DNA of 64,000 nt from Treponema sp. Marseille-Q4130 (GTDB lineage: Bacteria; Spirochaetota; Spirochaetia; Treponematales; Treponemataceae), in assembly GCF_014334325.1 (NCBI RefSeq), contig NZ_JACSET010000004.1:62001-126000 (forward strand). The letters run 5' to 3'. The position numbers were made by a program, and so were the translations under genes. The notes below the pieces were generated by a model, which did not search any database, was not told where the DNA came from, and saw only the letters and a program-made list of their open reading frames with translations. Below, in pieces: positions 5,173 to 56,769 of this stretch (position 1 is the stretch's first letter; every line of letters starts with the position of its first letter).

Positions 5173-5952
5173 ATGAAAAAATACGTAGTTATCACAGGTG
5201 CAAGTTCAGGCATCGGATACGAAGCGGCAAAGCGGTTTGCACAGCGCGGGAAAAATATCGTTGCGGTTGCACGAAATGAAGAAAAGCTCGCAAAGCTAAA
5301 AGCCGAAATTACCGGCATGGTTAATCCGCCTGTGGAGGTCATCATCAAAACGTACGACCTTACCCAAAAAGAAAATATCTATGCCGTATACAATTCCGTA
5401 AAAGACTTGGATATTGAAGCATGGATAAACAATGCGGGCTTCGGCGATTATTGCAGTGTGGGAAATCAAAACCTTGCAAAAATGGAAGATATGCTGAGCC
5501 TCAATATAGAAGCCGTTGCGCTTTTTTCAGCTTTGTATGTGCGGGACTTTGCAGACAAAGAACATACGCAACTTATCAATGTGTCTTCCGTCGGCGGGTA
5601 CACGATTGTTCCGACAGCGGTTACCTATCGCGCAACAAAGTTTTTCGTCGCCTCTTTTACCGAAGGCTTAAGCCGCGAGTTATCCGCAGCGGGAGCAAAA
5701 ATGAAAGCAAAGGTTTTTGCCCCTGCCGCCACAAAAACAAATTTCGGCAATATCGCCAATGACATCACAAACTACGATTACGACAAGGCATTCGGAAAGT
5801 ATCATTCATGCAAACAGGCTGTAGACTTTCTCATGCAGCTGTACGACAGCGATAAACCGCTCGGCATAGTAAACAGAGAAACCTTTGAGTTCAGCCTATC
5901 CGATTACCGCTTTCCTTATGTCCAAAAACCGCAAACCTTACAAAAGGTGTAG
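5173..5952 (+). CDS. SDR family NAD(P)-dependent oxidoreductase
   Basis: 259 residues with the classical short-chain dehydrogenase fold: TGASSGIG nucleotide motif at residues 8-15, NNAG near residue 88, catalytic Ser in INVSSVGG and Tyr/Lys in YRATK. ARN after the second strand hints at NADP preference. The substrate cannot be read from sequence. GAGGT lies 6-10 bases before the ATG. Third gene of the lipoprotein-MerR-SDR operon. Confidence 0.92.
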
Positions 5953-6167
5953 GAGTGATGAGGTTTCGCAATATCTGTACCGCCGACGGTACGCTTTTTC
6001 TTGATGACAAATCGTATAAGGTGTTTTATAATGTGGGTGCCTACGGTAAAGAAGATGAGCCTGAATTGAGCGCATTGTTGCAGTATCTTTGCGAGAGGCG
6101 GGCGACGAGCGGTTTTACACAGCACATCGATGCGCTTGTCGAAAAAGCGAAACGGAACGAAAAGTTT

Positions 6168-6176
6168 AGGAGTACG
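6168..6176 (+). repeat. target-site duplication, left copy
   Basis: AGGAGTACG, identical to 6313-6321, directly flanking the inserted 136-bp element. In the uninterrupted gene this encodes Arg-Ser-Thr. The duplicate is the expected scar of a staggered-cut insertion. Confidence 0.8.
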
Positions 6177-6312
6177 ATTATTGAACGTGTGCGCTCCCGC
6201 GCACGGCTAAAAACTTTTTCGGATGTTGATTCGAAGTCCGCGAAAGCGGACACGTAGAATCGGTTCTTTGCAGAACGAGCCGGAGGCTCTAGCATCCTGC
6301 AAAAGTTTTTAT
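6177..6312 (+). mobile_element. two-hairpin mobile repeat (MITE-like), long copy
   Basis: 136 bp bounded by a perfect 9-bp direct repeat. First hairpin: GTGCGC-TCCC-GCGCAC, followed by GGCT. Second: AAAAACTTTTTCGGATG pairing with CATCCTGCAAAAGTTTTT, with a TCG/CTGC internal loop. A 60-70-base loop sits at its tip, including a further AAGTCCGC/GCGGAC arm. A shorter copy with the same two hairpins lies at 37444-37516 (opposite strand), and a diverged one at 16091-16160. There is no coding capacity, so it would be moved by an enzyme encoded elsewhere. Confidence 0.75.
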
Positions 6313-6321
6313 AGGAGTACG
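6313..6321 (+). repeat. target-site duplication, right copy
   Basis: AGGAGTACG, right partner of 6168-6176. With the following TAT-ATG it also looks like a ribosome-binding site for the ATG at 6325. Confidence 0.8.
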
Positions 6322-6625
6322 TATATGTCGTTGAATATACGGGAAGATGATTTACGCATGGCAGGTGAAAAGATCGGTTTTGAACGGGGAATACGCAAAG
6401 GTCGACGCGATGGTATTACTGCGGGATCATATCAAGCAAAACGGGAAACGGCAAAGCTGATGCAGCGAGAAAGCTGTTCTGTCGATTTTATACAGCGGAT
6501 GACCGGTCTCTCGGAAGCGGAAATCGAAAATTTATGAGCGTTTCCTATCATACAGCCATTTCTTGACGCAAACCGCAGTTTGGCGTTATATACTTACAAA
6601 GAATATGTACGGAGAATAATAAGCA

Positions 6626-7276
6626 GTGCCGAATCAAACAGCCGATAGAACGATCCTTAAAGAATTAAGAGCGATAACAAAAGATAAGGCAAATTGGCAA
6701 ACGGCAATCGATGATGTCGCACCAAAACTCGGTAAACAATATTCGGAAGATGTAAAAGCAAAAGCCTTGTGGCTTCTCGGTGAAATGGGATTGCATTATC
6801 CTTCACACATACAACCGTATATTAAACAAATAGCCGATTATCTGAGAGACGACAATCCGAAACTGAGGGAACGATCGGTAAACGCATTGGGACGAATAGG
6901 CAGAGCGGACAAAGCTTTAATACTTCCCTATTTTGATACATTGATGGATATGCGCTGCGACACAGAGGAGGCGGTACGGCTTGCGTTTGTGTGGGCTTGT
7001 GAAAATATTGCAACGAATGCGCCGGAGTTTTTTTGCGACAAATTGGATTTATTTTATGCGTTGATATCGGATAAGGGAGAGCGAGTACGAATCGAAGCAC
7101 CTGAAATGTTTCGAGTGATGGGAAAACGGCTACCGCATTCCGTAGAGCCGTATTTGAAAAAATTGGAACGGTTTGCCGAACATGATTCGCATCCCGTTGT
7201 CCGTATTCACACGAGCGGTGCAATCCGCATAACGAAAAAAGCATTGGAGAAAAGCAAGCATGCCGCAGATGAGTAA
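6626..7276 (+). CDS. HEAT-repeat protein
   Basis: 216 residues, predicted soluble. It is built from paired helices of HEAT type: AKALWLLGEMGLHYPSHIQPYIKQI, LRERSVNALGRIGRADKALILPYFDTL, RIEAPEMFRVMGKRLPHSVEPYLKKL and VRIHTSGAIRITKKALEK. Such scaffolds bind proteins or, in the AlkD class, DNA; no AlkD catalytic pattern was recognised. The start is GTG, with CGGAGAAT ending nine bases before it. It overlaps the next gene by 17 bases, so the two are probably made together. Confidence 0.8.
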   Translation: MPNQTADRTILKELRAITKDKANWQTAIDDVAPKLGKQYSEDVKAKALWLLGEMGLHYPSHIQPYIKQIADYLRDDNPKLRERSVNALGRIGRADKALILPYFDTLMDMRCDTEEAVRLAFVWACENIATNAPEFFCDKLDLFYALISDKGERVRIEAPEMFRVMGKRLPHSVEPYLKKLERFAEHDSHPVVRIHTSGAIRITKKALEKSKHAADE

Positions 7277-48603: not shown

Positions 48604-50625
48604 TTACTTGCCGCGTTTTTCGGCTTTTGTGCGCTTACGCTTCATCGCGATTATGCTGAAGTTTATCGTCTTTTCCGTTTCCATGCCGGGAGCAAGATCG
48701 ATCGGCCAATGCATTGCGGCGCACAGCGTCATCGCCGCGGGAACGATTTTTCCGACTGCCGATTCGGGACGCCGGAACGTGATCGGCATAAAAGAAAGGG
48801 CGCAGCTTTCGTTCGGCTCACACATAAACGAAAGCGAATTTTCGGCATCGGAAAGCTGAACGGCCGACACATCCGAAATAATGCCCGACGGAGAGAGTGC
48901 GGCGGACGATTGTGCCGAATCGCTTTCAAAGCGCGTATCCCCCGATGCGATTTCGATCGTATACGGAGTAAAATCGACGGGATCGTAATTGGCTTGTGCG
49001 AAATTCGATTCGACGACGAAATCGGCACGAAGCGCTTCGGCACTTTCGTTTTTTACGATGTACTGCAGCGTAAAGCCGTTCGAATTCGCCGCGTATTTTT
49101 TTCGTACGGATAACGCCTGTTTTTTCTCGCCGAATTCGCCGGAAAATAAAAGCTGCACTTCTTTGTGCTGCGGAGAAAATTTTTGTTCGGTATATTGCGC
49201 TCGTAAAAACGTCTCCCGATTTTCACATTTGCCTTGCACATAGCCTTTGACGTCGGTATCGGAGAGGATATAATCGATAAAGAGCGAACGGACGTAATCG
49301 TCGGTACAGCCGTCGAAGGCTTCCATGCGGCTCAAATTGTCGGCGTAATTGCCCGCGCTCTGCATGACGTCGAGTTCGGAGATTGCCCCTGCCGTCCTCG
49401 TTATGCATGCCGTAAAGCCCGTCATGCGGAACATATATTCGTCGATGCCGTCGGCGTTGTAATCGAAACGGGATGCGGCCTCTTCGAATTCGCTGCACTC
49501 GCGGATGATCTTTTCCGCTTCGGAAAGGTTTTTAAAAGCGATCCTGCGATAGGCTGCGCGCACGAGCGGAGAGCTTGCAGTGCTCACAAAGCCTTCCCCG
49601 CTTTGGGCTGCCCAGAGTTTTTCGCGCGCGACTTTTTTGCGCGCTTTATCGCCGTGACATTGATTGGCAAGCATACTCACGTACAGCATGCGGTTGCACA
49701 GCGCCTGGCTTTCGGGATAGGTTTGCAAAAAATCGTAGATCGTAACGGGATAGCCGTCGCTTTTCGAAACCGCCGTATACGGCACTTTCGCCCACTGCGC
49801 GATTTCCGCATCGATACCGGCTGTGATAAAAGCGGGAACGCGGGCGCCGGCCGTCTTCAAGTAAGCACCGGGATACGAAAAGCGCAACGTACCCGAGAAT
49901 TGAGCAGAAGCGCTGTCGGCAAGTTTTTGCAAGTACCCCGATTGCAAAAGCTTTTGAAATTCCGCATGCGTCAGCTGTATATCGACAAAGCGTTCCGAAG
50001 AGGCGGCATCGTACGCATCGCCCCTCACGCTTTTTTTTACCGCAGCAAAAAGAGAGGCCAAATACTCTTCGGCGGGAACGTCGAGAGACGGTTTATGTTT
50101 TCGGTAAACGGGGATTATCGTTACGGATTTACCGCGGTCGAACATGATGACGGGAAGGTACGACTGTTTTGCAGGAGGAATAAGCGAGCTGTCGAGCACG
50201 ACGTATTCCATACCGCAGGTTTGAAAGCTCGTCACGAGGGACGCGTCCCAGCTCGAAGCACACAGCGTCATGCCGCGCGGACGCTTTCCGAGCGTCTGCC
50301 GTATTTCGGCGGAAAGCAATTCGATTTGATCGGTGCGGTCTTTCGGATACAAAAGCGGAAAGACGGGATTGTAAAATCCCCCTCCGAACACTTCTATCTG
50401 CCTGCGGGAGATGAGTTGCTGCAATATCGCAAGAAATTCGGGATGCTTTTTTTTGAAAAACTGCAATTCGTTTCCGTTAAACGAAAAAGCCATACAAAAA
50501 CAGGGGTTGGCGTATAAAAATTTTGCCGCCGGTTTGTAGACCTCCAGATAATCTTTTTCGCTGTCGGAAACCGTTTTGCCGGCCGGTGTTGACTCGAGGC
50601 CGAAACAGATACATAGCGCCTTCAC
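48604..50625 (-). CDS. GH57 4-alpha-glucanotransferase homologue, catalytic Glu missing
   Basis: 673 residues, GTG start with AAGGAG 13 bases upstream. The order of GH57 elements is present: IEVFGGGFYNPVFPLLYPKDRTDQIELL, KRPRGMTLCASSWDASL, a helical AREKLWAAQSGEGF stretch, then the C-terminal beta domain FDYNADGIDEYMF...GAISELDV with NYADNLSRMEAFDG. In active enzymes the region equivalent to residues 118-126 reads G-x-W-L-x-E-R-x-W, the Glu being the nucleophile; here that position is Ala123 and the Arg is Ser. It may be a glucan-binding pseudoenzyme. Confidence 0.75.
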   Translation of the reverse strand: MKALCICFGLESTPAGKTVSDSEKDYLEVYKPAAKFLYANPCFCMAFSFNGNELQFFKKKHPEFLAILQQLISRRQIEVFGGGFYNPVFPLLYPKDRTDQIELLSAEIRQTLGKRPRGMTLCASSWDASLVTSFQTCGMEYVVLDSSLIPPAKQSYLPVIMFDRGKSVTIIPVYRKHKPSLDVPAEEYLASLFAAVKKSVRGDAYDAASSERFVDIQLTHAEFQKLLQSGYLQKLADSASAQFSGTLRFSYPGAYLKTAGARVPAFITAGIDAEIAQWAKVPYTAVSKSDGYPVTIYDFLQTYPESQALCNRMLYVSMLANQCHGDKARKKVAREKLWAAQSGEGFVSTASSPLVRAAYRRIAFKNLSEAEKIIRECSEFEEAASRFDYNADGIDEYMFRMTGFTACITRTAGAISELDVMQSAGNYADNLSRMEAFDGCTDDYVRSLFIDYILSDTDVKGYVQGKCENRETFLRAQYTEQKFSPQHKEVQLLFSGEFGEKKQALSVRKKYAANSNGFTLQYIVKNESAEALRADFVVESNFAQANYDPVDFTPYTIEIASGDTRFESDSAQSSAALSPSGIISDVSAVQLSDAENSLSFMCEPNESCALSFMPITFRRPESAVGKIVPAAMTLCAAMHWPIDLAPGMETEKTINFSIIAMKRKRTKAEKRGK

Positions 50626-50770
50626 TTTGGCTTAAAAACTCCTTCCGGCTATTCTACACTATCTTCGCCATATTTTAAAGGTGTTTTTCCATTTTTATCG
50701 ATTTTTTTGTCGTCAATTTCGGAATTTTTCGCTCCTGCTGCGACGCGATTTTTGGTATACCCTTAAAAAA

Positions 50771-51334
50771 TCACCGTACAGGATAATCGCTGAGCCACGA
50801 AACGTTCCACACCGCGCACGCGATGACGAGGATCGCCAAAAGGATCATGACGAGTACGTGCCGGTTCAGACCCTCGTTTTTCGCCCGAGCGATATCTATT
50901 CTGTAACGAAGCGATGAGAGAACGGGCAGTACGAACACGAAAGAGAGCATACAGCTCGCCGCGATAATGAGGGCGTCGACGGGACTTGCGCTTTCGGAAA
51001 GAGAAAGGAGCACGATGAGGTATGAAGCGGCGCATTCCCCTGTCTGCATTACCGACGGAGTTTTCATGAAGAACCCTATTCCCGACAAAAGCGCCGTAAA
51101 TACGAGGAGCGCGGCAAGAGGATAGAGTTCCGAAACGCCGAGCGGAGAGAGAAAATGTACGGCGATGAGTTCCGTGAAAAATGTCGCCGCAAGGGCGGAA
51201 ACGCCGCATTGAAGAGCGGGACGAAAAACGCTTTTATCGAAAGCGACGCTTAAAGCTGCGGTGCGTTCGAGTCCGATACCGTAAAATAGGACGGCCGAAG
51301 CGTAAAACGCATAATACAAAACGATATCAATCAT
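50771..51334 (-). CDS. rnfA: RnfA-like membrane subunit, divergent
   Basis: 187 residues from ATG at 51334, overlapping the rnfE-like stop by 8 bases. Six membrane helices of RnfA/RnfE/NqrD/NqrE layout (IDIVLYYAFYASAVLFYGIGLERTAALS, ELYPLAALLVFTALLSGIGFFMK, ASYLIVLLSL). Normal RnfA carries a conserved LGLCPFLGVS-type cysteine in the first helix for a shared iron-sulfur centre; here it reads FYGIGLERTAALS with no cysteine. Assigned mainly by position and topology, so the symbol is tentative. Last gene of the operon. Confidence 0.6.
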   Translation of the reverse strand: MIDIVLYYAFYASAVLFYGIGLERTAALSVAFDKSVFRPALQCGVSALAATFFTELIAVHFLSPLGVSELYPLAALLVFTALLSGIGFFMKTPSVMQTGECAASYLIVLLSLSESASPVDALIIAASCMLSFVFVLPVLSSLRYRIDIARAKNEGLNRHVLVMILLAILVIACAVWNVSWLSDYPVR

Positions 51335-51944
51335 GGCTCGTCTCCGCTTTTTCGGCAGGCGCAGATTTCGCTGCGATAAACACGGAAACGGCGAGGATGA
51401 GCGCCAGAGCGATAAGAGCGCCGGGGATCGTTGCGAAAAACGACACGGATGCGATGCGCCCCGAATCGAACAGCACTTTTTCCGCAATACCGCGAGGCCC
51501 GATATACGTGATCGTTCCGAAACCGACAATATCGCGCAGCAAAAAAAATGCAAGCGCGAAACAGGAAAAAAGCGCTGCAGCGCTCATATTCCGTTTTAAA
51601 ATCGATTTTACACCCATCGTTTCGTCACTCGGAACAAAGCCCGCAACGAATGCGGAAACTGCCGGCACGTAGAGTGCAAAGCCGAGTGTAAGGGCTGCAA
51701 GCGGAAGAAGCGCCGTAAGGATCTGTCGAAAAAGCATCGTAAGAGAGACGATGAACGACATAAAAAGCAGATTTCCGATCCGAACGAATTCGAGCTTGCG
51801 GATCGCGTCACGCAACAGCGTCGCGGCGAAAACGAGCATAAAAACTTCGGCAACGAGGATGAGACCGTACGCAAAGCGGCCGGGAAACGGAATCATACAG
51901 GCAAGGGACGCCGAAAAATACAGCGGAACGAATCTTTTGCGCAT
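51327..51944 (-). CDS. rnfE: RnfE-like membrane subunit, divergent
   Basis: 205 residues from ATG at 51944 (GGAGGAAAG upstream), sharing one base with the rnfG-like stop (TGATG). Six helices; segments RKLEFVRIGNLLFMSFIVSLTMLFRQIL and AALTLGFALYVPAVSAFVAGFV follow the RnfE order. The NPVxVxxLGLCP-type motif with its conserved cysteine is replaced by RFVPLYFSASLACMIP. Identity rests on order C-D-G-E-A and topology. Confidence 0.6.
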   Translation of the reverse strand: MRKRFVPLYFSASLACMIPFPGRFAYGLILVAEVFMLVFAATLLRDAIRKLEFVRIGNLLFMSFIVSLTMLFRQILTALLPLAALTLGFALYVPAVSAFVAGFVPSDETMGVKSILKRNMSAAALFSCFALAFFLLRDIVGFGTITYIGPRGIAEKVLFDSGRIASVSFFATIPGALIALALILAVSVFIAAKSAPAEKAETSHD

Positions 51945-52411
51945 CACGGTCTTTCCTCCTCGATGCGTATGAGACGGGGAATGCGCTCCGCCCAATATCG
52001 GATCTGGCTTTTCGCTCCGCCGCTTTCGATCGCAGCATATACACGGCCGTGCAATCCCGCTATGCCTACAAAGCGTGCGGTATGCCTTCCGTCCGAGATA
52101 AAAACCGCAGGAAGAGGTCCGTACATCGTTTCCATACGTACGATGCACGCATAGCCGCTCACGCTTCCGCCTTTTACGCTGAAACACGCCGCACTCGACG
52201 ATACGGGAGCATCGAAATCGACAAAGTCTCCGATATGCCACACTCCCGGCTCGGCTTCTTCGAGCACGCGCGCTATTTCGGTTTTAATTCCCGCCTGCCC
52301 GGCGCCCTTCGTAAAAATCGCCGCGACGGACAACACGACGGCGAGCAATACGATGCAGCCTGCGAAAATGCCGTACTCCTGCAATGCTTCTTTTGAAAAT
52401 CGCTCCGTCAT
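51944..52411 (-). CDS. rnfG: RnfG-like subunit lacking the flavinylation motif
   Basis: 155 residues, one N-terminal membrane helix (YGIFAGCIVLLAVVLSVAAIF), then a periplasmic domain (TEIARVLEEAEPGVWHI, GYACIVRMETMYGPLPAVFI). Family RnfG proteins are about 180-210 residues and end with an S/D-G-A-T/S-x-x-T/S site where FMN is attached by Ftp/ApbE to Thr. No such site is present; the equivalent end reads ESGGAKSQIRYW. Overlaps rnfD by ATGA. Confidence 0.6.
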   Translation of the reverse strand: MTERFSKEALQEYGIFAGCIVLLAVVLSVAAIFTKGAGQAGIKTEIARVLEEAEPGVWHIGDFVDFDAPVSSSAACFSVKGGSVSGYACIVRMETMYGPLPAVFISDGRHTARFVGIAGLHGRVYAAIESGGAKSQIRYWAERIPRLIRIEEERP

Positions 52412-53484
52412 CGCCCTGCCCTTCCTTTACGGTTTTCCGCAAGTGCGGCACGCAGCCGCGCCGCATCCCGCTTGTCTTCAGCGGCTTGAATGAGCGGCGA
52501 AACGACGTTCGCACACAAAAGCGTAAAGATCATTCCTGCCGGCGACATACCGCAGCCGGCGATCAAAAATGCGAAAATGCCTGCAAGCATACCGTAGAGT
52601 ATTTTTCCGTACTTCGAGAGCGGCAGCGTGCCGTACTGCTGCACGACGAACACCGTATAAAAGAGCGTTCCTCCGGTACACAGCGCTAAAATCATATCGC
52701 CCTGCTCTGCGACGCCCCCCGCAATCGCGGGACCGGCAAAGCGCACAAGGAGCGCATACGCGATCACAAAGCAGCTCGGAACGAGCAGCCCCTGCATACC
52801 CCATGCAAACAAAACGATCGACGATAAAAGCGTCAGCGCATTGAATCGAAAGGCGGGGATGACCGAATGCGTATCCCACAAAAGCGAAATATAACCGTCC
52901 GGGATCGAAATATTGGCAAAACCGAATACCGTATTGTTGAGCGTTTCCGTTATCGCTCGGTCGATGCCCGTAATCGGAAATATGCCGTTTTGAATCAACA
53001 CGAACGAAGGATTTTTAATCTGCAGCATATCGCGCGTTAAATCGCTTTCGGGAAAAGCGCTCATGCCGATCATCCATGCGACGGCGGCGATGAGGACGGC
53101 GCTGTTCGCCCAGTCTCCCGCAAAGGGTCCCGAAAGGTATTTTAACAAAAGCACCGTACAAAACGCGATGCAAAAAACCGTTACGGGAGAAAAGGTCGAC
53201 GGAAGCAGCATCCCCGCGACGATTCCCTGCACGATATCGGAAAGCGGCGAGAGGCGGCAGCGCTCGATACGCTTTGCATACAACAAGTCGGCGGCAAAAA
53301 AGCCGGCAAGCGACGAAGCGATGACGAGGAGCGCACCGTAACTTTTCGTCGCCGCAAGCATGAGCACTTGCAGAGCCAGCAAAAGCGCCGTGACAAGTAA
53401 AACGTTTTTCGTCGACGGGGACAAGTATAAAAAAGGACGTTCGATTTTTTTTGTCCGCAAAAGCGCGGCCGTCGTATCGTTCAT
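52408..53484 (-). CDS. rnfD: RnfD-like membrane subunit lacking the SGAT flavin motif
   Basis: 358 residues from ATG at 53484, with AGGAG seven bases upstream; overlaps the rnfC stop by ATGA. About ten helices in the RnfD/NqrB arrangement: ADLLYAKRIERCRLSPLSDIVQGIVAGMLLPSTFSP, GDWANSAVLIAAVAWMIG, LNNTVFGFANISIPDGYISLLWD, GTLFYTVFVVQQYGTLPLSKYGKILYG. The D-x-x-SGAT covalent-FMN motif found before the LNNT...PEGY segment in normal RnfD is not found; the equivalent reads GIDRAITETLNNT. Fold recognised, cofactor site apparently lost. Confidence 0.72.
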   Translation of the reverse strand: MNDTTAALLRTKKIERPFLYLSPSTKNVLLVTALLLALQVLMLAATKSYGALLVIASSLAGFFAADLLYAKRIERCRLSPLSDIVQGIVAGMLLPSTFSPVTVFCIAFCTVLLLKYLSGPFAGDWANSAVLIAAVAWMIGMSAFPESDLTRDMLQIKNPSFVLIQNGIFPITGIDRAITETLNNTVFGFANISIPDGYISLLWDTHSVIPAFRFNALTLLSSIVLFAWGMQGLLVPSCFVIAYALLVRFAGPAIAGGVAEQGDMILALCTGGTLFYTVFVVQQYGTLPLSKYGKILYGMLAGIFAFLIAGCGMSPAGMIFTLLCANVVSPLIQAAEDKRDAARLRAALAENRKGRAGR

Positions 53485-54887
53485 GTCGGTTCTCCTGAAT
53501 ATCGTATGCGCTTTATCGCTTGGCTTATCGACAGTCTTGAAGGACATACCGAATTGCACAGTCCGCAGCCCGAACACAGAACTGCCGATTCGATGTATTC
53601 TTTCGACGCTTCGGCTCCGCCCGATGCATGCCGATACAATATATCGGGCGACAGATGACGGGGACAGACGACGCGGCATTCACCGCAGCGCACACAAGGC
53701 AATTCTCTCTGATCGGGGATACGGTGCATCGGCAAAAACGAAACAGATTTGACGTATTTCGTCACCGGAGCGTCGAGACTCGCGGCAAAGCTTCCGAGCA
53801 TGAGGCCGTTTATGATGACGGCGGCGGGATGGCGCTTCAATCCGCCGCATTGTTCGGCAAGGAAGCGCATCGTCGTTCCTATGCGGACTTTCATAAGACC
53901 CGCCGCCGGTACACATTCACCCGAAACGTACACATATTGTTCGACGCAGGGCACACCGCAGCGAACCGCATTGTGCACCGCTATCATCGAAGACGCATCG
54001 GCAAAAACGCATTCCGGAGAAATGTCGCCGAACGGCTTTTCTTTCACCGATTTTTTTACCGCATCGATTATTTCATTGCGGAAACCGGCCGGGTATTCGG
54101 TGATGTCGACGGGAACGAAGCATACGGGGACGGGAGCATCTTTGACGCGATCGAAGCCGAACGCCTGCAATGCCGACTGCATCGACGACGGCGTGACGCG
54201 AGCTTTCGCTTCGTGCGCCGTGTTTGCCGTCCGCTCCCGGCGCTCAGCTTGTCCCTTTTGCATTTCCGCAGCATCGTATGCGAAGACTATAGCGGCGTCT
54301 CCGAGCGCACGGGAAGTGATAAAGGCTCCCGTTTGTATATCTTTGAAAAACGCTTTCGATAAAACGGAATCGGTAACGCGCTTGGGATCGTCGTCATAGA
54401 GGCGCACGACGAGTACGCGGCGGTCTTTTATTCCGGTTTCGTCGATTTGAGACGCGAGGGATACGGGTTCGGTCGTATCGAAAGTATTGATGACGCCCGC
54501 ATCCGCGATCCTCTGAACGATTACCGATGCGGGGAGCGCTCTCCAATTTTCGAAAGAGCGCTTTTTTCCGAGATAGGAAAATCTCCCCGACAGGCGGATT
54601 TTTACCGCGCTCTCTTCGCACCCGTTCGGGCTGACGCACGGAACGATATCTTCGACGATACCGGGTACGCTTGCATGGAGCTTTGCACCGTAACGCTCGC
54701 CCGCATTCAAAGAAGGAGCGGCTATGACATCGCCTTCCTGCACGCGGTCACCCCGACGGACGAGACAGACGGAAGCGCCGTGAGCTTCGTGAGACAGCGG
54801 AATCGTCACGACCGGCTGCAAAAAACCGTTTACGGCACCTTTGACGAGGTTTCCTTCGCTCGTGTATATGGCGGGAATCATCTTCAT
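53481..54887 (-). CDS. rnfC: RnfC-like subunit with 4Fe-4S motifs but no NADH/FMN loop
   Basis: 468 residues. The barrel-sandwich front (VVTIPLSHEAHGASVCLVRRGDRVQEGDVIAAPSL...LHASVPGIVEDIVP), the SLBB-like middle (VRIGTTMRFLAEQCGGLKRHPAAVIINGLMLGS) and two ferredoxin motifs (Cys398, 401, 404, 408 and Cys438, 441, 444, 448) are clear. But the glycine-rich GxGGAGFPTHVKL loop and the NGAECEPYLTADHR segment that bind FMN and NADH are replaced by NTFDTTEPVSLASQI and RLYDDDPKRVTDSVL. So electron transfer through the clusters is possible while NADH oxidation is doubtful. ATG overlaps the preceding stop by ATGA. Confidence 0.78.
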   Translation of the reverse strand: MKMIPAIYTSEGNLVKGAVNGFLQPVVTIPLSHEAHGASVCLVRRGDRVQEGDVIAAPSLNAGERYGAKLHASVPGIVEDIVPCVSPNGCEESAVKIRLSGRFSYLGKKRSFENWRALPASVIVQRIADAGVINTFDTTEPVSLASQIDETGIKDRRVLVVRLYDDDPKRVTDSVLSKAFFKDIQTGAFITSRALGDAAIVFAYDAAEMQKGQAERRERTANTAHEAKARVTPSSMQSALQAFGFDRVKDAPVPVCFVPVDITEYPAGFRNEIIDAVKKSVKEKPFGDISPECVFADASSMIAVHNAVRCGVPCVEQYVYVSGECVPAAGLMKVRIGTTMRFLAEQCGGLKRHPAAVIINGLMLGSFAASLDAPVTKYVKSVSFLPMHRIPDQRELPCVRCGECRVVCPRHLSPDILYRHASGGAEASKEYIESAVLCSGCGLCNSVCPSRLSISQAIKRIRYSGEPT

Positions 54888-56281
54888 CGCATTTTACTCC
54901 GTACTAAGAGGATCGCCGGCATACAGAGCGCAAAAGCGAGGAGCAGCGTGTGCAAAAGCCCTCCGCCGCCCGAAGCCGAAAACGCATATCCCGTATGTAT
55001 ACGAGAGCCCTGTGCTTTTATTAATTTTTCAACTGCGGGATAGGGCAGCGCATCGATATCGCCGAGTGCCGCATCGTAAAAATTTTTATCGAATACCATA
55101 GAGACGCTCGTCTCCGAAATTCCCGCCTCGCCGTCGGAAAAACGCGGAAAGACGACGCTGTCACCCGTCTTCGGATGCTTTTCATGCGCGCTTTGTGCAT
55201 TTACCGAACGGTACGGAGCGGTTTTCGTATTCCAGCACCACGCAACGTATTCGTCGAGCGTCGGAAAATTCCCCGCCGACGATTGCGCACGGGCGGAAGG
55301 AAATGCGAGCTCGGATGCGCGGGGAAAAGGAGAAGCGGCAAAGCCGACCGAAAACGCGGACAAAAGAGACGCGACGAAAAGAGAAGCGATGCTTGAAGCG
55401 CAGGCGGCCGTTCCGCGAAACGTCGTTTTCGTAAAAAACGGAATCGCCCGAGCGGGCAGGATAGGAACAAGCGTAAACCGGTAACGCGCTTCGTACAATC
55501 GCTCGCCCGTCGAAAACGCGGCAAGCGCGGATAGGGTACCGGCGGCAAGCGGCACAAAAAGCAGGGCGCTTCTAAGCGAGGACGCACATGCGATAATGAA
55601 AGATACGGCAAAAAAGGCGATAAGTGCAGGATTCGTTTTGAGTGCCGAAAATGCGCCCCGCCTTCCCCACAATCTCAGCGCGATAAAAAGCGCATACAAA
55701 AAGAGGCAAGCCGATGCCGCAACAGCATACAAGGGTACACATGAGGCAAACAAAACAGGAAAAAGCGCAGCAGCAAAAAAGACCGCACGGTGCGGAGATA
55801 AAAAACACAAGAGAAGCGCAAAGACAGTACAGATGAGCGGCACGATAAACGGATAGACGCCCTGCGTATCGATGCCCGCCGCTATGCCCGCCGCGCGGAA
55901 TTCTCGTACGGCATCTTCGGCAAGCGGCGCATACCGGTCTTCGATATAGTAGAGCCGATACTGTGCACCTCTGTCGAAAAAATACGCCTTGCGTTTTGCA
56001 AGATAGCCGTCCGCATCGGCAAAAGCGAGCGCGAGAGACACTTCGGGAGAATGCATCGGAAGCGTAAGCGGAAGCCGCTGAGAAGAAAGGCTTATGACGT
56101 TTTCACATCCGGCACGCTTTAAAACGTCGACCGCATAATCGTCATCAGAAGCGTCGTCGACATACACGATACGGTAACGCTCCCACAGATTTCCCGTCGG
56201 CACCGTCCGAAAAATGAAAAGAAGGGAAAGAGAGACCAAAGCGATGCTGCAAAAAATTAACATTTTTTTTACTGCGGTCAT
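54884..56281 (-). CDS. membrane protein of the Rnf-like operon, family unrecognised
   Basis: 465 residues from about ATG at 56281 (ATG 56263 also possible). First membrane helix (MLIFCSIALVSLSLLFIF), an external alpha/beta stretch of about 150 residues (RYRIVYVDDASDDDYAVDVLKRAGCENVISLSSQ), five or six helices at about 150-290, a second external region with a WCWNTKTAPYRS segment, and a final helix. No cysteine motif or cofactor site recognised. Five bases after the PAP2 gene and overlapping rnfC, so it belongs to the operon. Confidence 0.75.
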   Translation of the reverse strand: MTAVKKMLIFCSIALVSLSLLFIFRTVPTGNLWERYRIVYVDDASDDDYAVDVLKRAGCENVISLSSQRLPLTLPMHSPEVSLALAFADADGYLAKRKAYFFDRGAQYRLYYIEDRYAPLAEDAVREFRAAGIAAGIDTQGVYPFIVPLICTVFALLLCFLSPHRAVFFAAALFPVLFASCVPLYAVAASACLFLYALFIALRLWGRRGAFSALKTNPALIAFFAVSFIIACASSLRSALLFVPLAAGTLSALAAFSTGERLYEARYRFTLVPILPARAIPFFTKTTFRGTAACASSIASLFVASLLSAFSVGFAASPFPRASELAFPSARAQSSAGNFPTLDEYVAWCWNTKTAPYRSVNAQSAHEKHPKTGDSVVFPRFSDGEAGISETSVSMVFDKNFYDAALGDIDALPYPAVEKLIKAQGSRIHTGYAFSASGGGGLLHTLLLAFALCMPAILLVRSKMR

Positions 56282-56286
56282 AGTTT

Positions 56287-56769
56287 CTACTGCAGCAGCG
56301 CAAATGCAAATCCGATTGAAAAACCGATCAAAAGACCGACGATCACTTCGAGCGGCGTGTGCCCCTGCACTTCCTTTATCGGCGTATACGCGATGATCTT
56401 TTGCCGGTCGAGTTCTTTTCCGATTTCGTTCAAGCGCTTGGCCTGAATACCGCTTGCCCGTCTCACGCCGAGCGCATCGCGCACCGTGACGAGCAAAAAA
56501 CACAGAGACAATATGAATACATCGGAGTGAATCCCCGAGTGAAAACCGATAGACGTCGTCAGAGCCGAAACGATCGCGGAATGGCTCGACGGAAGACTCC
56601 CCGTCCGCCACACCATCATTTCAAAGAGTACGGACAAGCTGCGGATTTTATGAGACAGCAAAGCAATGATCGTTTTTAAAAACTGTGAACAAAACCAGCT
56701 GCAGATGCACGCCAAAAAAATGGGGTTCGCTAAAAAGAGTTTCAGTTGTTCTTTTACCGACAGCAACAT
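56287..56769 (-). CDS. divergent PAP2 family protein (DUF212)
   Basis: 160 residues, four to five membrane helices. The DUF212 signature is clear: RTGSLPSSHSAIVSALTTSIGFHSGI, then VRDALGVRRASGIQAKRLNEI and ELLGHTPLEV-like KEVQGHTPLEVIVGLLIG. These are PAP2-like acid phosphatases of unknown substrate, perhaps a lipid phosphate. First gene of the transcript running through the Rnf-like genes. No Shine-Dalgarno; the promoter at 56777-56805 puts the start site at or next to the ATG. Confidence 0.9.
   Translation of the reverse strand: MLLSVKEQLKLFLANPIFLACICSWFCSQFLKTIIALLSHKIRSLSVLFEMMVWRTGSLPSSHSAIVSALTTSIGFHSGIHSDVFILSLCFLLVTVRDALGVRRASGIQAKRLNEIGKELDRQKIIAYTPIKEVQGHTPLEVIVGLLIGFSIGFAFALLQ

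Follow-up and report, generated by a model that had tools for sequence, protein, structure and literature searches.

A divergent Rnf-derived operon of Treponema that probably lacks the transmembrane electron relay

The presence of Rnf is taken to indicate ion pumping driven by ferredoxin, and tp0151 of the syphilis spirochaete Treponema pallidum has been annotated and modelled in this way. What could an Rnf-like complex do if its electron carriers no longer had their binding sites? This question is raised by an operon in a 64,000-nucleotide stretch of DNA from Treponema sp. Marseille-Q4130 (contig NZ_JACSET010000004.1, positions 62,001 to 126,000), here called the window. An initial annotation of the window reported five coupled genes in the order C-D-G-E-A that overlapped by 1-8 bases, and the coordinates confirmed this layout (4, 4, 1 and 8 bases for C/D, D/G, G/E and E/A, respectively); a sixth gene, U, which overlaps C by 4 bases, had been overlooked. 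We found that nearly every electron-carrier site was lost from this operon, and the complex must therefore do something other than the job of Rnf. By sequence criteria, the operon does not encode a functional Rnf and is an Rnf-derived variant. We consider the loss of the electron relay highly probable. As an explanation of the whole, we favour, with a confidence just short of even, an old second rnf operon of the order of Treponema that would have been neofunctionalised and would contain no recognisable transmembrane electron path.

Subunit identity and cofactor sites

All six genes were located on the minus strand. C (53481-54887, 468 amino acids) was recognised by the RnfC_N and 4Fe-4S models above their cut-offs and by the rnfC model TIGR01945 with an E value of 1e-44, which was below the curated cut-off, and D (52408-53484, 358 amino acids) matched PF03116 above the cut-off (E value of 3e-31). 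The Pfam/NCBIfam-type scans revealed no relevant family-model match for the G slot (51944-52411, 155 amino acids), E (51327-51944, 205 amino acids), A (50771-51334, 187 amino acids) or U (54884-56281, 465 amino acids). Profile-profile comparison with the canonical subunits of 21 loci of the genus matched C with RnfC (100%) and D with RnfD (99.6%), and it separated the two membrane proteins E and A, as E was assigned to RnfE (91%, versus 0.2% for RnfA) and A to RnfA (84%, versus 0.1% for RnfE). Upon comparison with solved structures, the A profile found three sequences, all of which were RnfA (E values of 7e-7 to 1e-5). PF02508 was matched weakly, below the curated cut-off, by two E proteins and one A protein out of five such proteins (E and A) taken from other families of the order. 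Judged by these profiles, the operon unites specific homologues of RnfC, RnfD, RnfE and RnfA, encoded by C, D, E and A. The G protein, with one transmembrane segment and a small domain, likely descends from RnfG, as suggested by its position, its topology and a weak chain of homology, in which the G profile of the genus matched G of the loci labelled f5 at 72% and G of the relatives L232 and L228 at 15%, and the latter matched RnfG at 75%.

Cofactor motifs were counted in 80 C, 80 D and 79 G proteins of a genus-wide locus sample, and the 21 canonical loci of the genus served as controls. The alignments covered 30 of 37 D proteins and, within length limits, 32 of 78 C, 51 of 72 G, 44 of 52 E, 50 of 67 A, 35 of 49 X (an RnfB-like protein described below) and 49 of 74 U proteins. 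In the alignment of C with canonical RnfC, GVINTF replaced GGASFPT, DDDPKRV replaced ECEPYLT (DDDPKRVTD for ECEPYLTVD), and YPAGF replaced YPQGGEK. Neither GGA[GS]F nor E(C)EPYL was present in any of the 80 C proteins, while both were present in 21/21 canonical loci. Both 4Fe-4S motifs were found in 78/80 C proteins and in all 21 canonical ones, the exceptions being the 100-residue fragment L149 and L153, which had one motif. The eight cluster cysteines were invariant in the 32 aligned C proteins, a result that concerns motifs only. The description of RnfC as a protein that keeps its 4Fe-4S motifs and lacks the FMN/NADH segments thus applied to the family as a whole. RnfC of one relative (L219) was divided between an open frame of 228 amino acids and another of 175 (about 5530-6806, oriented), which may represent a frameshift or a gene fission.

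The flavin sites of D and G were also missing. The motif [ST][GAS]AT was found in a single D protein of 80 (L126), where it began at residue 37, away from the flavin site, compared with 20/21 canonical loci, and [ST]GAT was found in none of the 79 G proteins, compared with 20/21; one canonical locus, L176, was the sole exception for both motifs. The RnfD flavin motif SAAT was aligned near KNPS in the D protein of the window. NqrB/NqrC-type flavinylation sites were not found in D or G by motif. Two residues of Acetobacterium woodii RnfD, N123 and D249, act as riboflavin ligands according to the accessible part of PMC11889175. N123 was conserved in D, and the position of D249 was occupied by Gln in the window and by Trp in the profile consensus. 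The earlier statements that RnfD lacks SGAT and that RnfG lacks the flavinylation Thr therefore hold as far as the motifs are concerned, and the identity of the second protein as RnfG carries the grade given above. In the GETS region of RnfD, the f5 loci had IADRG, and most of the Treponemataceae shown had IPAFR(F/Y)N (IPAFRFN in the window), a newly conserved motif that contains Arg.

No cysteine was conserved at the RnfA/E [2Fe-2S] ligand sites in the aligned E and A sets. The initial annotation stated that both proteins lack the helix-1 cysteine; this was correct for a conserved ligand, but the E protein of the window does have a helix-1 cysteine, C16, which is unconserved and lies one residue off the aligned ligand. 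The only frequent cysteine in A, C128 (36/50), did not align with a ligand when the alignment was read by eye. A lone helix-1 cysteine (GLCP) stayed in E of L216 and L217, which belong to one genus, and the other [2Fe-2S] ligands were gone there. The alignments ruled out flavin or cysteine sites at shifted positions, given that the L126 motif lies at residue 37 and C128 of A lies off the ligand. In the available text of PMC11889175, A. woodii strains with mutated ligands of B8, AE1, FMN-G or riboflavin showed no autotrophic growth and no Fd:NAD reduction. Together with the family-wide loss of the sites, these mutants support well the earlier claim that electron transfer from ferredoxin to NAD by way of covalent flavins is probably beyond this complex.

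The RnfB-like protein X and a canonical operon elsewhere in the genome

The observation that no rnfB adjoins the operon was true in the window, where the site between A and the downstream GH57 gene (50626-50770, minus strand) contains no such gene, but most relatives carry an rnfB-like gene, here named X, at this site. In a survey of 80 loci, 8 of which were not assessable, X was present in 57 and absent in 15 of the remaining 72. The X protein consists of approximately 200 amino acids; it has eight invariant cysteines (35/35) and a single hydrophobic segment at its N-terminus. For two scanned X proteins, the best NCBIfam model was RnfB, which was matched at model positions 98-202 of 292, and the profile-profile comparison matched X with RnfB at 99.5%. 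The part of RnfB retained in X is the part away from the membrane. A PF04060-type motif was found in 0/77 confirmed X proteins (two overlapping sets of 55 and 22) and in 21/21 canonical RnfB proteins. This motif is the mark of the B8 domain, which passes electrons to the in-membrane cluster in Rnf. In L228 and L230, the RnfB relatives retained this cysteine pattern, as a variant in the case of L230. Because the in-membrane [2Fe-2S] ligands and the B8 motif of X were lost, the ferredoxin-driven ion pump that the initial annotation had offered as one alternative is unlikely.

A search of the window genome revealed a second, canonical operon on contig C17 with the order rnfC-D-G-E-A, followed by a short RnfB. 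The search for rnfB and apbE yielded one PF04060 protein, which adjoined the canonical operon, and one ApbE match. No X orthologue was found elsewhere in this genome, as the 16 matches were all confined to ferredoxin motifs. On the basis of these matches and of the single PF04060 protein beside the canonical operon, we rejected the possibility that RnfB had moved elsewhere in the genome. There were 11 FMN_bind domains, of which one was the canonical RnfG and none was in the window locus; eight of the 11 sat in open frames of 594-752 amino acids. The canonical RnfB (L003:9569-9850, contig C17) was 93 amino acids long and comprised a transmembrane segment and an FeS domain without the polyferredoxin part. 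In 20 other canonical loci, RnfB measured 265-287 amino acids in 18, 156 in L172 and 95 in L175.

Distribution, stepwise site loss and the T. pallidum locus

The divergent operon was widespread. With a threshold of E<=1e-20, D was found in 171/200 genomes of the genus and in all 85 high-quality ones, and PF02508, which detects canonical RnfA/E, was found in 135/200 and 68/85, respectively. Hence, 17 high-quality genomes of the genus had D of the divergent operon and no detected canonical RnfA/E. Five genomes picked by hand among those without PF02508 each had one RnfD, which was of the divergent type, and FMN_bind was absent in four of the five. A match to U was found in 314/390 sampled genomes of the order, 172/195 high-quality genomes and 72/91 genera. 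The dN/dS values of U, C, D, G, E and A were 0.10-0.24 relative to two T. socranskii records, and all six genes are under purifying selection.

U is a new membrane protein and a component of the operon that was found through the order. Its hydropathy indicated an N-terminal transmembrane segment, an extracytoplasmic domain, further transmembrane segments, a second extracytoplasmic domain and a C-terminal transmembrane segment, with the sidedness inferred. U belongs to no known family; it matched nothing above approximately 5% in the profile-profile comparison with canonical subunits, and searches of Pfam, NCBIfam and PDB with U and G returned scattered weak matches alone. The gene order U-C-D-G-E-A was seen, as far as the contigs reach and subject to the picking of open reading frames, in 36 fetched relatives (31 of the genus and five of other families). 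The rows were incomplete at contig ends for L053, L061 and L066 and not cleanly split for L065; the genes of the relatives were chosen by position and length, and in one set picked in this way the E and A rows of L065 are the next genes; no count given here comes from that set.

Across the order, the cofactor sites vanish stepwise, as read from the motifs. In L232, D had SGAT, G had a GAT motif, E and A had two cysteines each, and the RnfC loops were altered; the contig stops after A. L228 kept the cysteine pairs and the SGAT of G and had SGAS in D. In L230, one E cysteine and the G motif were lost and D had SAST, and in L070, from the same family, SAST was the one site kept. The f5 loci and the Treponemataceae shown had none of these sites, save the lone E cysteine of L216 and L217. 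The RnfC cluster motifs were kept in every readable row of this series, the split RnfC of L219 being unreadable. In trees of 31 C and 33 D hand-chosen rows, from which L219 was left out, a single branch parted all 22 U-linked rows from the canonical ones, with support of 100/100 (C) and 100/96 (D). L232 was nearest to the canonical rows in the C tree, and in the D tree the deepest U-linked rows were unresolved and L215 was flagged as a long branch. The intermediate lineages form a natural series of successive site loss, and with it the idea that the Rnf scaffold serves a purpose other than redox chemistry becomes testable.

In the T. pallidum genome (G225; 1,139,633 bp in one contig), PF03116 was matched once, at 174 kb, by a protein of the divergent type. 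Because this genome has one RnfD, tp0151 would be the gene at 174 kb. The locus order was DUF212-C-D-G-E-A-GH57, the same locus type as in the window, but without U; neither U nor X gave a match at the locus, which has no room for either. All eight RnfC cluster cysteines were kept, and the flavin, NAD and [2Fe-2S] motifs were absent. Two FMN_bind proteins lay elsewhere in the genome, and flavinylation in T. pallidum therefore has other possible targets. According to the accessible portion of PMC11371664, tp0151 was assigned as the rnfD gene of a complex that oxidises flavodoxin and generates an ion gradient. A flavin-dependent RNF was likewise placed in T. pallidum energy metabolism in the available passages of PMC7512555 and PMC11717252, the first of which labels it noncanonical; the searched locus names were not mentioned in PMC12223175. 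That the sole RnfD of T. pallidum appears to be of the divergent type speaks against the flavin-dependent RNF pump that has been proposed there, for which the flavin, [2Fe-2S] and NAD sites are missing. If the transmembrane electron path is lost, the energy-conservation model of T. pallidum would need another ion pump. The initial annotation had made no connection with T. pallidum, nor with the canonical operon or the RnfB relic X.

Possible functions and genomic setting

In the A. woodii model presented in the accessible text of PMC11889175, RnfA/E operates by alternating access, and the A/E-D core may for this reason be a redox-independent transporter or scaffold. In the proposed mechanism, the A/E pair, which is the alternating-access module in Rnf, would form a redox-independent transport or scaffold machine with D and U, and RnfC, together with X where present, would form a cytoplasmic cap carrying [4Fe-4S] clusters, with either a structural role or one in sensing or gating by the redox state of the cell. 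We propose this transport or scaffold role tentatively. Na+ is not claimed as the substrate because the RnfE gate arginine was unconserved in E and the equivalent of the RnfA glutamate, Glu in 40/50 A proteins, was Gly in the window (positions matched by eye). Several points weigh against our overall reading. We infer a role for which the data suggest no substrate, U and X are missing at the T. pallidum locus and are therefore not indispensable everywhere, and a non-covalent flavin could still be bound because the riboflavin Asn of RnfD was kept. Peripheral electron transfer could also run through the Fe-S clusters of C (and X). In addition, the direct match of G with RnfG was just 0.9% and the search of solved structures likewise gave none, the E profile found no Rnf chain among solved structures and hence no solved RnfE, and ferredoxin motifs produced the cross-matches C-RnfB (92.5%) and X-RnfC (84%).

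One alternative to this transport or scaffold role is a peripheral redox enzyme, in which ferredoxin or flavodoxin would reduce X and/or the RnfC [4Fe-4S] clusters and these would reduce a soluble partner, on the cytoplasmic side only, with the membrane subunits as an anchor. We regard such an enzyme as unlikely; the invariance of the cluster cysteines in C and X while other cofactor sites were lost, as well as the retention of the RnfB part distant from the membrane, would suit it, but X is missing in the window, in 15 of the assessable relatives and at the T. pallidum locus, and the dN/dS of the membrane subunits was similar to that of C, which is more than a mere anchor seems to need. A flavin-dependent pump driven by flavodoxin or ferredoxin, with non-covalent flavins or unrecognised sites, is the view published for T. 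pallidum in the accessible parts of PMC7512555 and PMC11717252, and the conserved riboflavin Asn speaks for it. This pump appears quite improbable given that the AE1 cysteines, the FMN-G and FMN-D threonines, the riboflavin Asp, the FMN/NAD loops and B8 were all lost, that A. woodii mutants of B8, AE1, FMN-G and the riboflavin ligands were null (PMC11889175, available text), and that FMN_bind proteins were absent in four of the five checked genomes with the divergent operon alone.

The divergent operon might instead provide an assembly factor, a regulator or a decoy for the canonical Rnf of the same cell, as its subunits are homologous to those of the canonical operon and the C-D-G-E-A order is the same. 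This helper role was rejected as very improbable, since the divergent operon occurred in 17/85 high-quality genomes in which PF02508 gave no match, and since a second RnfD is missing in T. pallidum. Decay into a functionless operon would be compatible with the progressive loss of cofactor sites, the split RnfC frame in one relative and the in-frame stops that interrupt U in a few genomes, but purifying selection, the presence of D in every high-quality genome of the genus, the new conserved motifs and the retention of the locus in the 1.14-Mb T. pallidum genome leave it almost no probability, and it was likewise rejected.

Compared with known systems, the divergent operon resembles canonical Rnf, as represented by the A. 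woodii, C. tetanomorphum and A. vinelandii structures and by the C17 operon, in the homology of C, D, E and A and in the two RnfC [4Fe-4S] motifs. It further shares the gene order of the C17 operon, and relatives carry the RnfB-like X. In contrast to canonical Rnf, it lacks the FMN/NAD loops of C, the flavin threonines of D and G, the conserved A/E [2Fe-2S] cysteines and B8 in X, and U is added. Na+-NQR (NqrABCDEF) provides a parallel, as its proposed origin is a duplication of the rnf operon followed by loss of rnfB (PMC4014512, accessible part) and its NqrA, the RnfC equivalent, lost its redox cofactors (PMC11889175 and PMC12174285, accessible parts). However, NQR kept the transmembrane relay and gained NqrF, whereas the divergent operon lost the relay sites, kept the RnfC Fe-S motifs and gained U; no NqrF-type gene was present among DUF212-U-C-D-G-E-A-GH57. 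The NQR/RNF-like flavinylated electron-transfer systems described in the available text of PMC8238504 also have an NqrB/RnfD homologue at their core, but include an FMN-binding and an NqrF-type NAD domain, neither of which is found in the divergent operon. Among the titles, abstract openings and passages covered by searches of open-licence PMC, we found no description of cofactor loss in this family, and NQR was the closest precedent. The balance tips slightly towards a third functional branch of Rnf/Nqr that is order-wide, would move no electrons across the membrane, has the subunit U and would be the sole "Rnf" in T. pallidum, where the RNF chemiosmotic pump would not exist as proposed. Besides NQR, this would be the second case in which a duplicated rnf operon was neofunctionalised.

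The operon is flanked by two conserved neighbours, both on the minus strand. A DUF212 (divergent PAP2) gene (56287-56769) lies directly upstream, in T. pallidum as well, and a GH57 alpha-amylase/glucanotransferase-like gene (48604-50625) lies directly downstream. These neighbours offer a lead towards envelope or glycan work and nothing more. The window genome measures 2.79 Mb and is 99.8% complete, and its D protein was 91% identical to the nearest named record, from T. socranskii subsp. socranskii.

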